DNA of 64,000 nucleotides from Cognatishimia activa (GTDB taxonomy: Bacteria; Pseudomonadota; Alphaproteobacteria; Rhodobacterales; Rhodobacteraceae), in NCBI RefSeq assembly GCF_017798205.1, contig NZ_CP060010.1:1240001-1304000 (forward strand). Direction: 5' to 3'. Position 1 is the first letter of the stretch; each line of letters begins with the position of its first letter. Below, piece after piece: positions 5,826-43,069 of this stretch. The translations under genes were made by a program, and so were the position numbers. The notes below the pieces were generated by a model. It saw nothing but the letters and a program-made list of their open reading frames with translations, was not told where the DNA came from and did not search any database.

Positions 5826-5985
5826 CGGTTTTGGCCGAGACTATTCGGCAGTTACGGGGCGACGGCTGGTATCCTGACTTGCTGCTCAGATCCGAAGGGC
5901 TCTGCAAGGCTTACAGTTGCGGGGGCAGTCCAAGATTCTCACTTGGTTCCCAATTAAGGCCTCCTTTCGAAGACCGCCATCTATG
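5826..5985 (-). promoter_or_regulatory. Cobalamin (B12) riboswitch
   Basis: On the minus strand the leader of the CbiM-like gene has the class signatures in order: a GGGAACCAAGTGAGAATC-type segment (complement of about 5934-5952), the core GACTGCCCCCGCAACTGTAA (complement of 5911-5930), and a downstream box AGTCAGGATACCAGCC (complement of about 5863-5878). This matches the established AdoCbl-riboswitch core. It should repress the downstream gene when adenosylcobalamin is plentiful. The outer limits are approximate. Confidence 0.88.
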
Positions 5986-6120
5986 ACTGTTTTAGGGAAG
6001 TTACGCGGTTTGGATGCATCAATTGCGACGCTTTTCAACAGATATGCGCAAATCTTTAAGCAGAAAAAAATTAATATTTATTAATGCCTTAAGGCGTGAA
6101 ATCCCGAAAACGCTCCGCGA
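5986..6120. other. AT-rich intergenic region upstream of the riboswitch
   Basis: This 135-bp stretch lies between the riboswitch and the stop of the small membrane protein gene. It should hold the promoter of the riboswitch transcript. It contains the palindrome GCCTTAAGGC and the AT-rich run AATTAATATTTATTAAT. No gene is visible. Confidence 0.4.
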
Positions 6121-34671: not shown

Positions 34672-34687
34672 TGTTTCACGTGAAACA
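34672..34687. promoter_or_regulatory. parS site 1
   Basis: TGTTTCACGTGAAACA, the exact 16-bp ParB-binding palindrome. It lies 5 bp outside the parB stop, between parB and its terminator. Confidence 0.95.
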
Positions 34688-34692
34688 GAAAG

Positions 34693-35589
34693 CTAGGTCG
34701 CAGAAAGTATCCTGCAAAGCTCGTCCAGCTGATCCATGTCCTTATACTTGATCGTGATCTGGCCAGAATCGGACCCGGACTTGTGATCAATAAAGACCTT
34801 CATGCCTAGGTTCGCGGACAGATCGCCCTCAAGCGCCTTGGTGTCCGCATCCTTCTCGACCTTCTTTGGCTTCGGCTTGTCGCGCTCTCCAGAGGCAAAC
34901 TTCTTGACCATGTCTTCGGTTTGACGCACCGACAGGCCATCGGAGACAATCTTGCTCGCAATCTCATGAGCATGGTCAGAGGTGATCAAAGCGCGTGCGT
35001 GACCGGCGCTGAGCTTTCCTTCTTCGAGCAGGCTTTGAATATCACCCGGAAGATTAAGCAAACGCATGAGGTTCGCGATGTGGCTGCGGCTTTTGCCCAG
35101 CGCCTTCGATAGCTCTTCTTGGGTATGGCCAAAGCGGTCCATCAGCTGCCGATACCCTGCCGCTTCTTCCACAGGGTTAAGATCAGAGCGCTGGATGTTT
35201 TCGATGATCGCGATCTCAAGAACTTCGGTGTCGTTGAATTCACGCAGGATGACAGGCAGCTCATGCAGTTGCGCTTTCTGCGATGCGCGCCACCGGCGTT
35301 CACCAGCTACGATCTCGTAGATCCCAGCTTCATCAGGCTTTTCGCGCACGATCAGAGGCTGGATCACGCCCTTCTCTCGGATCGAGTTCGACAGGTCCTC
35401 CAAGTGCTCGGGATCGAAACGGCGACGGGGCTGATCAGGATTCGGCACAATCTTTTCGATTGGAACCATCATATCTGGGCGGCGGGCGCCCTCTTCTGAC
35501 GGATTCGCAGCCGGAGCTTCGTTCACATCTGCCATTAACGCGGACAAGCCGCGACCCAAACCCCTTGATTTCATCCTGTTTTCGGCCAT
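34693..35589 (-). CDS. parB: Chromosome-partitioning protein ParB
   Basis: CTPase and parS-binding protein that spreads on DNA and is moved by ParA. It has 298 residues from the ATG at 35589 (MAENRMKSRGLGRGLSALM), with AAGGAG at good distance; the frame stays open to 35619. The arginine-rich box is GERRWRASQ, the N-terminal box is IVPNPDQPRRRF, and the helix-turn-helix is in LSKALGKSRSHIANLMRLLNLP. It lies 16 bp after parA. Confidence 0.97.
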   Translation of the reverse strand: MAENRMKSRGLGRGLSALMADVNEAPAANPSEEGARRPDMMVPIEKIVPNPDQPRRRFDPEHLEDLSNSIREKGVIQPLIVREKPDEAGIYEIVAGERRWRASQKAQLHELPVILREFNDTEVLEIAIIENIQRSDLNPVEEAAGYRQLMDRFGHTQEELSKALGKSRSHIANLMRLLNLPGDIQSLLEEGKLSAGHARALITSDHAHEIASKIVSDGLSVRQTEDMVKKFASGERDKPKPKKVEKDADTKALEGDLSANLGMKVFIDHKSGSDSGQITIKYKDMDQLDELCRILSAT

Positions 35590-35605
35590 GCCAAGCTCCT
35601 TATCG

Positions 35606-36418
35606 TTATTGTGCGGCAACCATCATGTGTTTTTGCAGCAGCTCCTGCGCCAAATCGCGATATGCCATCGCACCCTTTGACTGCGGATCATACTGCAAGA
35701 CCGACTGCGCAAAAGACGGGGCTTCGGAGACCCGTACATTTCTAGGTATTTTCGTTTGGAAAACCAGATCGCCCAGATTGTCCCGCGCGTCCTCTTCGAC
35801 CTGTTGCGACAGGTTATTGCGCGCATCAAACATTGTCAGAACAACGCCCTCAATCCGAAGATTTGGGTTCGCGGTCTGACGTACCTCTCGCACTGACAGC
35901 ATAAGCTGAGACAAGCCCTCTAGAGCAAAGAACTCTGACTGCAGCGGGATCAGCACGGAATGTGCCGCGACCATCGCGTTGACCGTCAAAAGGTTCAACG
36001 ACGGTGGGCAATCGATCAGGATGTAATCCAATTCATAGCGGTCCATATCGGGTTGCCGCAAAGCGTCATGCAAAAGGAAGCTGCGCTTTTCCGTCGCCAT
36101 CAACTCAATATCCGCAGAGCTGAGGTCGACTGTTGCCGGAACAATGAAAAGATCTGAGGATTCCGTGGGCAAAATCACCTCTTCCAAAGAGACGTCGCCC
36201 ACCAAAAGATCATAGGTCGTGAACCCCCGATCTTCGGGATCCACCCCAAGACCGGTAGACGCATTGCCTTGCGGATCCAAATCGACAACCAGAATGCGAG
36301 CGCCCTTCTCGGCCAAAGCTGATGCCAGGTTGATGGTCGTGGTTGTCTTGCCAACCCCACCCTTTTGGTTCGCAATTGCGATAATTTTCGGTGTATTGCC
36401 TCGGATAGGATCAGACAC
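35606..36418 (-). CDS. parA: Chromosome-partitioning ATPase ParA
   Basis: Walker-type ATPase that binds nucleoid DNA and drives ParB-parS segregation. It has 270 residues. The deviant Walker A is QKGGVGKTTT (18-27); Walker A' is LVVDLDPQGNAS, and LDYILIDCPPSL follows. The start is the GTG at 36418, preceded by GGAGAT, and it overlaps the rsmG stop by 8 bp. Confidence 0.97.
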   Translation of the reverse strand: MSDPIRGNTPKIIAIANQKGGVGKTTTTINLASALAEKGARILVVDLDPQGNASTGLGVDPEDRGFTTYDLLVGDVSLEEVILPTESSDLFIVPATVDLSSADIELMATEKRSFLLHDALRQPDMDRYELDYILIDCPPSLNLLTVNAMVAAHSVLIPLQSEFFALEGLSQLMLSVREVRQTANPNLRIEGVVLTMFDARNNLSQQVEEDARDNLGDLVFQTKIPRNVRVSEAPSFAQSVLQYDPQSKGAMAYRDLAQELLQKHMMVAAQ

Positions 36419-37034
36419 GACGTATATCTCCGATCTTTAAAATAACTGCGCCCTCTTGCGTATTACTTGTAATCGCCTCGCAGCTGAAAGACCACGATTC
36501 CTCTGCGGCCAAGACTTCTTTTTTCCAGTTCACACCCTTGGGAAAAATCGCCGTTCCGCCGGTGCGCAGGTGCAATTCCGAAAACTCTAACAATTTTGCG
36601 AGGTCACTGAGGGCTCGAGCGGACAGAATATCAGCATTTTGAGCGTCTGCGCTTTCAATTCTCTGACAAATAACTTGCCCAGGAACCCCCATTTCGCGCA
36701 AAGCGCTTCGCAAAAACGAACATTTTCGGATGTCGCTCTCAATCATGGTCATTTTCAAATCAACATCTAGGTCCGGCGCGCAGGCCGCGATCACCAATCC
36801 CGGAAATCCTCCACCGCTCCCGATGTCCACCCAATGTGTGAGTGACTGCAACGAAATGCAGCTTAGAATTTGAGCAGAATCAACGATGTGTCGCTCCCAA
36901 AGATTTGGGATGGTTTGGTTTGACACGAGATTAATGCGCTTGTTCCACTTGACCAACAAGGCTGAAAGAACTTCCAATCTTTCGAATGTTTCACGTGAAA
37001 CATTGAGATCGGCAGGTGAGTAGCTGGAACTCAC
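36411..37034 (-). CDS. rsmG: 16S rRNA (guanine(527)-N7)-methyltransferase
   Basis: Methylates G527 of 16S rRNA. It has 207 residues. The SAM motif is [17 protein letters not shown], and [14 protein letters not shown] and AIFPKGVNW are typical. The GTG at 37034 overlaps the mnmG stop as GTGA and has AGGAGA upstream. Codons near residues 12-17 (NVSRETF) are written by parS2, so the site is embedded in the reading frame. Confidence 0.95.
36987..37002. promoter_or_regulatory. parS site 2
   Basis: TGTTTCACGTGAAACA, a perfect palindrome inside the rsmG coding sequence, encoding part of NVSRETF. Confidence 0.95.
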
Positions 37035-38899
37035 GCGGACTTCTCCTGCCTTCTGGAGTCTTGACGTAATTTCGCAAGAAGTAGCGTCAAGGCAGCGGGC
37101 GTCATGCCATCAACACGGGCTGCCTGCGCTAGGTTACCTGGCCTCGCGCGCGAAAGTTTCAGCTTCAACTCATTCGAGAGCCCATCCAATCCGTCATAGG
37201 AAAAGTCTGACGGGATCTTCTGCGCTTCATCTTTCCGCAGAGACGCGACTTCTTTGTTTTGCCGTTCGATATAGTTCGAATAGAGGGCATCCTTCGAAAG
37301 CTGATCCTGAATTTCTGGCTCCAGACGTGACAGGCCAGAAATCAGTGGTTCGAGATCTGCCATCTCTACATTCGGAAAGGCCAAAAGCTGAAATCCACTA
37401 CGTCGATTGCCGTCACTATTAACTTCGATACCGACAGCTTGTGCCTGCTTTGGAGTGAAAGTTTGATCGGACAAGAGAGACTTTCCTTCATTCAGAGCAT
37501 CCATCTTGCGACTGAAAGCACTTTTGCGCTCTTCTCCAACGAGGCCGATTTCAATACCCATTCCGGTCAATCTCTGGTCCGCGTTGTCAGCACGGAGTGA
37601 CAGTCGGAATTCGGCGCGAGACGTAAACATTCTATATGGCTCGGTCACGCCGCGCGTGACGAGGTCGTCAATCATAACACCAATATAACTGTCCGCTCGA
37701 CTGAATAAGAGTGGATCGTGCCCCATTGCTTCCAATGCGGCATTGGCACCCGCAACCAGACCCTGAGCCGCAGCTTCCTCGTATCCGGTGGTTCCGTTGA
37801 TCTGTCCGGCCAGGTAAAGTCCTGGCACGTCTCGCACAGACAACCGCATGTCGAGGGATCTGGGATCTACATAATCGTACTCAATCGCATAGCCAGGCTG
37901 AAGGATCTTAGCGTCCTCAAGGCCATAAATCGAATGGACGTATTGTTCCTGAACATCGGCAGGCAGCGACGTTGAAATTCCGTTCGGGTACACTGTGTGA
38001 TCTGATAATCCTTCAGGCTCTAGAAAGACCTGATGGGAGTCCTTATCGCCAAACCTCACGATCTTGTCTTCGATAGAGGGGCAGTACCTTGGTCCTACTC
38101 CGTCAATATGCCCACCGTACATCGCGGAACGCTCCAGGTTCGTGCGGATGATGTCGTGAGTGTTCGAATTTGTATGGGTGATACCGCAGTTTACCTGCCG
38201 AGCCTCTGGCGTTTTGTTCAGAAATGAAAACATAACTGGGTCGTCATCGCCCGGCTGGGATCCCAAAATGTCCCATTTTATCGTGCGACCGTCCAGCCTA
38301 GGAGGCGTCCCGGTCTTTAAACGCCCCAATGGAAGTTCAAAACCATCGATCCGCTCGGCCAACTTCACAGATGGCGCATCCCCCATGCGACCGCCGGGTT
38401 TGGACACGTCTCCGATATGGATGACGCCACGTAGGAAAGTTCCAGTCGTCAACACCACTGCTGACGCGTGAATGTCTGAGCCATCAGCCAAACGAACACC
38501 CCGAACGGCTTCGCCCACCATCAAGAAGTCAGCGACCTCACCCTCTACGATGTCCAAACCGGTCTGTGCTTCCATTTCCTGAAGCATCCGCTCGCGATAT
38601 ATCTTTCGGTCTGCCTGAGCACGGGGCCCCTGAACCGCAGGGCCTTTTCTCCGATTTAGCAGGCGGAACTGGATACCAGCCGCATCCGCGACACGTCCCA
38701 TAACTCCATCAAGTGCGTCGATCTCGCGAACCAAGTGGCCTTTACCCAATCCGCCGATCGCAGGATTGCAGGACATGACACCAATGCCTGATCGTTTCAA
38801 CGTAACAAGCGCCGTCCTCGCGCCCAATCGCGCAGAGGCCGCAGCAGCGTCACAACCGGCGTGACCCCCGCCAACAACAATGACATCAAAATGTTTCAC
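37031..38899 (-). CDS. mnmG: tRNA uridine-5-carboxymethylaminomethyl modification enzyme MnmG (GidA)
   Basis: FAD enzyme that modifies the wobble uridine of tRNAs together with MnmE. It has 622 residues. FAD is bound through [18 protein letters not shown] at the N terminus; [22 protein letters not shown] and [16 protein letters not shown] are diagnostic. The start is the GTG at 38899 (MKHFDV), with AAGGAG eight bases upstream. A GTG at 38908 (MFHVKH) is also possible but nearly touches that site. parS3 covers both starts. Confidence 0.95.
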
Positions 38900-38907
38900 G
38901 TGAAACA
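38892..38907. promoter_or_regulatory. parS site 3, overlapping the mnmG start
   Basis: TGTTTCACGTGAAACA, perfect palindrome. The central GTG of the site is the preferred start codon of mnmG, and AAGGAG lies just outside it. The site lies 4.4 kb outside the trmE-distal end of the probable oriC. Confidence 0.95.
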
Positions 38908-41606: not shown

Positions 41607-42056
41607 TCAGAATTTCACCACCACAGAGAGCACGATCAACACCATCAGCAAGGTCGGCACTTCGTTCATCATGCGGTACTGACGACCAGTCAGCTTATTT
41701 TCGCCCTTCTCAAAGTCTTTGCGCCGGGCCATCAGCCAATGGTGAAACCAGGTCATTCCAAGAATACCGACAAGCTTCGTATAGGGCCACACAGCGCTCC
41801 AATCCACGATCCCCGGGGTAAGCGCCAAAAGAAGACCAAAGAGCCATACAGCCCCGCTTGCAGGCCCTATGATCACTTTCAGGAGCTTGTACTCCATGAT
41901 CTGGAAAGTCTCATCAAGTTGATCCCCCTTCTTAGCCCGCTCCACGTGATACACATAGAGACGCGGCAAATAGAAAAGACCCGCCATCCAGGCGATCACA
42001 GACATAATGTGAAAGGCTTTGATCCAAGGATAGGAAATAGCCAGGATATCGGACAT
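41607..42056 (-). CDS. hemJ: Protoporphyrinogen IX oxidase HemJ
   Basis: Membrane enzyme oxidising protoporphyrinogen IX to protoporphyrin IX, the usual form in alphaproteobacteria. It has 149 residues with four membrane segments. Visible conserved stretches are WIKAFHIMSVIAWMAGLFYLPRLYVYH and TWFHHWLMARRKDFEKGENKLTGRQYRMMNEVPT. His17 and an Arg/Lys cluster match the family. ATG at 42056, next to the probable origin. Confidence 0.93.
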   Translation of the reverse strand: MSDILAISYPWIKAFHIMSVIAWMAGLFYLPRLYVYHVERAKKGDQLDETFQIMEYKLLKVIIGPASGAVWLFGLLLALTPGIVDWSAVWPYTKLVGILGMTWFHHWLMARRKDFEKGENKLTGRQYRMMNEVPTLLMVLIVLSVVVKF

Positions 42057-42082
42057 GTCTTGGGGCCTGCTCTGATCACTCT

Positions 42083-42118
42083 CAATAATAATAAATATAT
42101 ATAGAAAGAAAGATGATT
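42083..42118. promoter_or_regulatory. AT-rich block, candidate DNA unwinding element
   Basis: CAATAATAATAAATATATAT followed by an AGAAAGAAAGATGATT tail. It is the most AT-rich stretch in the origin region and is bordered by DnaA-like boxes on its maf side. Confidence 0.55.
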
Positions 42119-42137
42119 TGGTAGTGCGACAATTTTC

Positions 42138-42146
42138 TGTGGATTA
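42138..42146 (-). promoter_or_regulatory. DnaA box-like 9-mer
   Basis: Reverse complement TAATCCACA, one mismatch to TTATCCACA. Confidence 0.6.
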
Positions 42147-42162
42147 TCGAGTTTTACGGACC

Positions 42163-42171
42163 TTACCCACA
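42163..42171 (+). promoter_or_regulatory. DnaA box-like 9-mer
   Basis: TTACCCACA, one mismatch to TTATCCACA. Confidence 0.6.
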
Positions 42172-42278
42172 GGGGTATAAAAAGCATCTCAAATTGGAAT
42201 TCTCACGGGGAAACCATTAGAATCCACAATTAAACTCATAAATTCAATAGCTTATGAATTGTGGCAGAAATGTGGCCG

Positions 42279-42287
42279 TGTGGATAA
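42279..42287 (-). promoter_or_regulatory. DnaA box, perfect
   Basis: TGTGGATAA, the exact reverse complement of TTATCCACA. It is the strongest box in the region. Confidence 0.8.
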
Positions 42288-42333
42288 TTCCTTGTATAAA
42301 AATTGCAGTCGCCCGGTTTTCACATATAGACAG

Positions 42334-42342
42334 TTATCCATA
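42334..42342 (+). promoter_or_regulatory. DnaA box-like 9-mer
   Basis: TTATCCATA, one mismatch to TTATCCACA. Confidence 0.6.
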
Positions 42343-42461
42343 TCCAGCGCGGAGAAGATTGGAATATCACCCCCGAAATATCCTCTATCGCGGGGATGCT
42401 TTATCTGTCACTGACTCCTCAACAAAGAATACACGCAGACTTGCACGGTTTTTGCACCAAG

Positions 42462-42470
42462 TTACCCACA
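42462..42470 (+). promoter_or_regulatory. DnaA box-like 9-mer at the maf start
   Basis: TTACCCACA, one mismatch to the consensus, overlapping the maf ATG at 42470 by one base. DnaA binding here could repress maf; that is inference. Confidence 0.5.
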
Positions 42471-43069
42471 TGACCCAAAGTTTGATCCTTGCTTCATCTT
42501 CCGAGATCCGCGCGCAGCTTTTGCGCAATGCGGGCGTATCTTTTGACGTAAAACCCGCCCGTGTGGATGAAGAGCTTATCAAGCAAAGTCTCATTGCCGA
42601 AGGTCACACACCACGGGATATCTCGGATGCTTTGGCCGAAGCAAAGGCTTTGCGCGGCAGTGCGAAATCGCCGGGGGCTTTGGTTGTGGGCTGCGATCAG
42701 GTGCTTGATCTCGAGGGGCGGCTCTTGTCTAAACCCGCGTCCGTTGATGAGGCCCGTGCACAGCTTCTTGCCCTGCGGAATAAACGACATACGCTTTATT
42801 CGGCCGCGGTGATTTGCGAGGACGGCAAGCCGATCTGGCGGCATATTGGTCAGGTAAGATTGTTCATGCGGGACTTTTCTGAGGCCCATCTGGACGGATA
42901 TCTCGCGCGCAACTGGGACTCTGTTCAGTATTCGGTCGGAGGCTATAAATTGGAAGAAGAAGGCATCCGTTTGTTTGCGCGGGTGGATGGCGATTATTTC
43001 AACGTGCTTGGCTTGCCGCTATTGGAACTTTTGTCCTTCCTGACTCTCAGAGGAGATCTGCCCAAATGA
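42470..43069 (+). CDS. maf: Maf-family nucleoside triphosphate pyrophosphatase
   Basis: Hydrolyses non-canonical or modified nucleotides. It has 199 residues. The phosphate loop is LILASSSEIRAQLL at the N terminus; KALRGS, VVGCDQVLDLEG and the C-terminal GLPLLELLSFL are typical. The ATG at 42470 is chosen; the open frame to 42254 lies in the origin. It starts the coupled maf-aroE-coaE-dnaQ operon. Confidence 0.94.
   Translation: MTQSLILASSSEIRAQLLRNAGVSFDVKPARVDEELIKQSLIAEGHTPRDISDALAEAKALRGSAKSPGALVVGCDQVLDLEGRLLSKPASVDEARAQLLALRNKRHTLYSAAVICEDGKPIWRHIGQVRLFMRDFSEAHLDGYLARNWDSVQYSVGGYKLEEEGIRLFARVDGDYFNVLGLPLLELLSFLTLRGDLPK

Follow-up and report, generated by a model that had tools for sequence, protein, structure and literature searches.

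The hemJ–maf intergenic region as the probable chromosomal replication origin of Cognatishimia activa

Where does the replication of the Cognatishimia activa chromosome start? We have addressed this question in a stretch of 64 kb, hereafter the window, that covers positions 1,240,001-1,304,000 of one contig of 3,252,335 bp (window coordinates are used unless marked as genome). A gene-free and AT-rich region located in it, between hemJ and maf, had been proposed as a probable chromosomal origin from inspection of the letters. The description given then of the site was accurate. The gap has a G+C of 0.41 vs. 0.56 for the window, the two flanking genes are divergent and transcribed away from it, and the five DnaA 9-mers of the original prediction (one perfect and four with a single mismatch, on both strands) were all located, as were the AT block and, on the left, parAB with three parS sites, all of them perfect (Table 1). 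Judged from the sequence, the proposal itself is strongly supported by the GC skew, the parS sites, a dif-like site, a stability minimum and the conservation of the locus, and we consider that the hemJ–maf gap is very probably the oriC of this chromosome. The box cluster, a conserved IHF slot and the dnaA gene also speak for it. The points against are the weakness of the sampled skew, the presence of one perfect box only, the distance to hemE, four of 79 related gaps devoid of boxes and five of 25 family loci without a short gap.

Table 1. Sites and genes discussed in the text (window positions, unless marked as genome)
Feature	Position	Strand	Remarks
Putative oriC region (intergenic, hemJ–maf gap)	42057..42469	.	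genome 1,282,057-1,282,469
hemJ (PF03653), left flank	41607..42056	-	
maf (PF02545), right flank	42470..43069	+	
parB	34693..35619	-	
parA	35606..36418	-	
parS, perfect palindrome	34672..34687	.	
parS, perfect palindrome	36987..37002	.	inside rsmG
parS, perfect palindrome	38892..38907	.	at mnmG start
Putative AT-rich DNA-unwinding element	42084..42123	.	nearest-neighbour stability profile; conserved A/T block
Conserved element AGAAAGATGATTTGGTAGTG	42107..42126	+	4 mismatches to consensus AGGATGATGATTTTGTAGGG
DnaA box TAATCCACA	42138..42146	-	one mismatch; adjoins putative unwinding element
DnaA box TTACCCACA	42163..42171	+	one mismatch
IHF-like site ATTCAATAGCTTA	42242..42254	+	1 mismatch to WATCAANNNNTTR; conserved slot
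DnaA box TTATCCACA	42279..42287	-	perfect; sole perfect of five
DnaA box TTATCCATA	42334..42342	+	one mismatch; slot weakly conserved
DnaA box TTACCCACA	42462..42470	+	one mismatch; overlaps maf start codon
Four TTWTCCACA boxes in 173 bp, intergenic	genome 2,133,404-2,133,576 (L002:9905-10077)		

The window contains 15 DnaA sites at one mismatch or less, and the densest cluster, of 405 bp, is the one in the hemJ–maf gap. Four boxes are wholly inside the gap, the fifth extending one base beyond its end with a final A that is shared with the ATG of maf. Such a number was reached by none of 5000 first-order Markov sequences modelled on the gap itself (mean 0.16, maximum 3), indicating a cluster beyond chance. 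In 560,901 sampled bases, three or more boxes per 413 bp were found only here and in a cluster beside uvrB, which had been put into the sample deliberately for its boxes. No plasmid replication initiator (RepABC or similar), the gene expected beside a plasmid-type origin, was detected when 17 proteins encoded between 32.9 and 48.8 kb were scanned with Pfam. At Rfam gathering scores there was no structured RNA at the gap, and no tRNA was found in the window. The sole Rfam match of the window was a cobalamin riboswitch (RF00174) at 5847-5996 on the minus strand, with 78 bits.

At the scale of the genome, a search for the parS palindrome retrieved three perfect sites only (genome 1,274,672-1,278,907), which lie on the left side of the gap at a distance of 3-8 kb. 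Any other site differed from the palindrome by at least two mismatches. The gap is thus near parABS, as is usual in Rhodobacteraceae. GC skew, proposed originally as a check, was measured in 44 pieces amounting to 17% of the genome, and on this sample the sign changes near the gap. It was positive in 20 of the 23 pieces of the right arm and negative in 20 of the 21 of the left arm. With a score that assumes a terminus exactly opposite, the best single switch was at 1.30-1.31 Mb (1.63), closely followed by 1.28 Mb (1.59), the gap being at 1.282 Mb; the highest score in 2000 permutations, done on a coarser 40-kb grid, was 1.18. Against the gap it must be said that the skew is weak, that the best-scoring switch is 18-28 kb to its right and that a piece 11-22 kb to its right has negative skew. 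Besides, the values were slightly negative in two pieces near the terminus and slightly positive in one left piece. At fourfold sites, using rough ORFs from 20 stretches outside the window, six of nine left stretches were negative and eight of eleven right ones positive, a less clear picture than that of plain GC skew, and the T-A skew had no clean switch in the sampled pieces. The largest skew among the 44 pieces, +0.197, was found at genome 2635001-2647000 (L159).

The other end of the replichores points to the same place. Searching the whole genome with a dif-like pattern, we obtained one match (2899595-2899616, two mismatches, zero control matches). It is some 9 kb away from the point opposite the hemJ–maf gap, and the arms would measure 1,617 and 1,635 kb. 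The dnaA gene, coding for a protein with three Pfam DnaA domains, is 296 kb from the gap. The usual origin marker in Alphaproteobacteria is hemE. In C. activa this gene is at genome 844,716-845,738, some 436 kb from the gap, and the marker fails for this organism.

We have examined whether the arrangement is found in relatives. A search with HemJ gave 406 loci, of which the best 80 were retained; the closest relative among titled records was a Cognatishimia metagenome bin with 99% protein identity. In 78 of these best 80, maf, the gap, hemJ and rho appear in that order, and in the two exceptions (L108 and L115) the contig begins just before hemJ. Adding the gap of the window itself, we had a set of 79, with lengths of about 359-452 bp (median 413, with starts inferred from tblastn) and a G+C of 0.45 vs. 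0.57 for the loci. In a second, unselected set, the 25 family loci among 30 returned by another search, the short gap (363-426 bp) was present in 20. Among the remaining five, maf had no match in L034, L044 and L045, hemJ had none in L035, and L039 was long. In this last family member (G023) hemJ and maf are separated by about 1.2 kb, compared with the usual 0.4 kb or so. In five loci from other families maf was not found beside hemJ.

The boxes themselves are also maintained. The 79 gaps have on average 2.56 boxes at one mismatch or less, vs. a mean of 0.083 in control stretches of 420 bp (n=660); four of them have none, the box at the maf ATG being outside that count. In the alignment, allowing two mismatches, the slot at 42138 is occupied in 63 of the 79 gaps, that at 42163 in 51 and that at 42334 in 23, while for the slot at 42279 the count is 41 out of 71 sequences, those with an ungapped alignment. 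A box running into the maf start is present in at least 39 of 79. Among nine genomes of the genus, C. activa included, the boxes at 42163 and at the maf start (one mismatch or less) are found in all nine, that at 42138 in eight and that at 42279 in seven. The IHF-like slot, at one mismatch or less, is found in 49 of the 79 gaps vs. one elsewhere in the gap and four in local shuffles, so that DnaA and IHF slots are in register across many of them. In L064 and L100 a second DnaA box (one mismatch or less) abuts the one on the element side, making a tandem pair in two of the 79 gaps.

According to the nearest-neighbour profile, the AT block at 42084-42123 is the least stable stretch of 40 bp in the 64-kb window. 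It adjoins the first DnaA box (42138), as would be expected of an easily opened element, and overlaps the hemJ leader. This minimum leads into the most conserved stretch of the alignment, nine columns that are part of the consensus AGGATGATGATTTTGTAGGG. The consensus is found at five mismatches or less in 43 of the 79 gaps and in none of 79 shuffles, a comparison that controls composition only, as the consensus was derived from those same gaps. Both this GATGATGAT…GTAGGG element and the TAATCCACA box (two mismatches or less) could be placed in 39 of the 79 gaps, where they are separated by 11 bp (33 cases) or 12 bp (six cases), with a SD of 0.36. In those same gaps the distance from the element to the hemJ start varies between 46 and 71 bp (SD 5.5). 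Because the spacing to the box is fixed and the distance to hemJ is variable, the element appears to be linked to the DnaA box more than to hemJ.

These spacings bear on two readings in which transcription is the reason for the sites. One is that the boxes are regulatory, DnaA acting on the promoters of the divergent genes hemJ and maf, with the origin at some other nearby place. One box does cover the maf start codon, the AT block overlaps the hemJ leader and the consensus element, on the strand of hemJ, contains in our reading a -10-like TACAAA; however, the element keeps its distance to the box and not to hemJ, and the stability minimum, the IHF slot and the skew switch all coincide at this gap, so that we find this reading very improbable. 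Regulation of hemJ and maf by DnaA may of course occur besides the origin function. The narrower alternative, that the GATGATGAT…GTAGGG element is a hemJ promoter only and takes no part in opening, has a real chance of being correct, even if we lean away from it. The element is upstream of hemJ, with the same -10-like sequence in our reading, and a fixed spacing between element and box is what would also be expected if the box sat in the hemJ promoter. What argues against a promoter only is that the element stays at a constant distance from the DnaA box rather than from hemJ and that, again in our reading, no TTGACA-like -35 is found at 17 bp from TACAAA, that place being occupied by the DnaA box.

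With the gap taken as the origin, the sites can be arranged in a plausible order of events. ATP-DnaA would load on the perfect box at 42279 and on the weaker boxes of both strands, and IHF would bend the DNA at about 42242, bringing the two groups of boxes together. DnaA would then extend leftward from the TAATCCACA box at 42138 to the GATGAT…GTAG element and the AT block, the helix opening at 42084-42123. The helicase would be loaded there and forks would depart in both directions, after which ParB, on the three parS sites, would move the new copy away.

The site is of an ordinary kind, as origins of this type have already been predicted with Ori-Finder in 101 strains of Rhodobacteraceae, and the passages of that work that we draw on use features that the gap shares: DnaA boxes, a local minimum of G+C, and proximity to parAB and to the GC disparity minimum (PMC6699656). 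Those passages give no architecture at the level of sites, unlike the plan presented here; what is added to the earlier predictions is the support at genome scale, the site plan and a candidate opening module. Like in the case of Caulobacter crescentus Cori, as described in part of PMC1914354, the gap has DnaA boxes, an AT-rich region and an IHF site. The flanks are different, hemJ and maf instead of hemE and COG1806, and, unlike in Caulobacter-type origins, hemE is far away (at 844.7 kb of the genome) and no CtrA site (TTAA-N7-TTAA) was found at one mismatch or less in the gap of the window; perfect CtrA sites are present in 13 of the 79 gaps. Escherichia coli oriC is arranged as unwinding element, DnaA box, IHF site and further boxes, and the same order is found at hemJ–maf. 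The spacing is different, and the GATGATGAT…GTAGGG element is in place of the 13-mers that the E. coli unwinding element has.

The box beside the element deserves attention. At its position 2, the 79 gaps have A in 60, G in seven, C in six and T in six, while at the other slots T is maintained at this position (66 of 79 at 42163, 46 of 71 at 42279 and 58 of 79 at 42334). Position 2 is also the one that is changed in the G-boxes of Caulobacter Cori. According to the relevant part of PMC4468827, the change there is from T to G and lowers the affinity; in both cases one T is replaced, by G in Cori and by A at the 42138 slot in 60 of the 79 gaps. It is likely that this box, TAATCCACA, has been tuned to be weak by its T-to-A change. 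In open-licence PMC papers we found no report of TAATCCACA together with DnaA, and searching it alone gave none on bacterial replication among the matches listed. A DnaA-related match for GATGATGAT was a primer, in the portion seen of PMC12547741.

In the same way, we have compared the element with the basal unwinding system (BUS), for which the rule, as worded in the available section of PMC8287927, is a DnaA box and at least three DnaA-trios, 3'-NAN-5', starting within 16 bp. Like in the BUS, the element of the hemJ–maf gap adjoins a DnaA box. In our own version of the rule, the window has at most two consecutive central-A triplets within 16 bp, a run of four trios beginning 20 bp from the 42138 box, and the family complies in 21 of 76 gaps vs. 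43 of 76 with shuffled flanks (L057, L063 and L125, with no box within two mismatches, were dropped from the 79). The standard DnaA-trio reading was rejected accordingly. In 33 of the 76 gaps a 5'-TAG-3' triplet (3'-GAT-5') is present at a distance of precisely 13 bp from the box, on the side and strand that agree with Bacillus subtilis.

The conserved motif beside the origin may be the spot where the strands first open. We would go further only tentatively, with a proposal that we regard as doubtful when taken as a whole: that the oriC of Rhodobacteraceae is opened by a module proper to this lineage, working like the DnaA-trios with a different sequence code, in which an element of G[A/T]T periodicity with GTAGGG at its end is kept 11-12 bp away from a TAATCCACA box that is weak by design, and that the DnaA-box cluster on the side of uvrB buffers initiation in one genus. 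The pattern GATGATN{2,8}GTAGN{9,17}GTGGAT was found in 37 of 198 family genomes, C. activa included, vs. two of 198 for the reversed pattern, counting matches genome-wide irrespective of a place beside hemJ. A sample of the alphaproteobacterial class gave 15 of 289 (control, two of 289), made up of two of four family members and 13 of 285 others. In 11 of these 13 GTAGGG is absent, and a motif of wider distribution in Alphaproteobacteria was rejected. The site-by-site plan is found again in many representatives of this large marine family, and with the conserved element and its altered box, opening could be assayed directly in a species other than the standard models.

The cluster beside uvrB is the other place in the genome that could be taken for the origin. 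It is located 0.85 Mb from the hemJ–maf gap, between a universal-stress-protein gene and uvrB that are convergent, in intergenic DNA that has a G+C of 42%. The four TTWTCCACA boxes, packed into 173 bp, are tighter and match the consensus better than those of the gap. Counting perfect boxes alone would indicate this wrong locus. Actually, the skew is positive at the cluster and in the sampled pieces at either side, its distance is 0.85 Mb to the perfect parS sites and 0.77 Mb to the dif-like site, and outside the genus there was no conservation: each of the 21 loci examined had zero or one box in the 800 bases that follow uvrB (a shorter stretch in three of them). That the true origin is there is hardly credible to us, and it was rejected on these grounds, leaving the hemJ–maf gap as the preferred site.

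The uvrB cluster may instead be a young locus similar to datA or DARS, acting in DnaA titration or reactivation. In E. coli DARS1 adjoins uvrB. The passages seen of PMC5010248, PMC5742627 and PMC12371093 give no confirmation of that adjacency; those of PMC5742627 place the datA core in an intergenic position, downstream of the neighbouring genes, and also give an intergenic location, between oriC and terC, for DARS1 and DARS2. Within the genus (nine genomes, C. activa included) the box spacing of 37-44-83 bp is identical in two; among the other genomes, the locus at uvrB retains an inverted pair at a spacing of 44 bp in two, three boxes in one and a single box in another, and has no box in the remaining three. 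In G006, of the same genus, a 189-bp part of the cluster aligns at 70% and the spacing of the boxes is kept.
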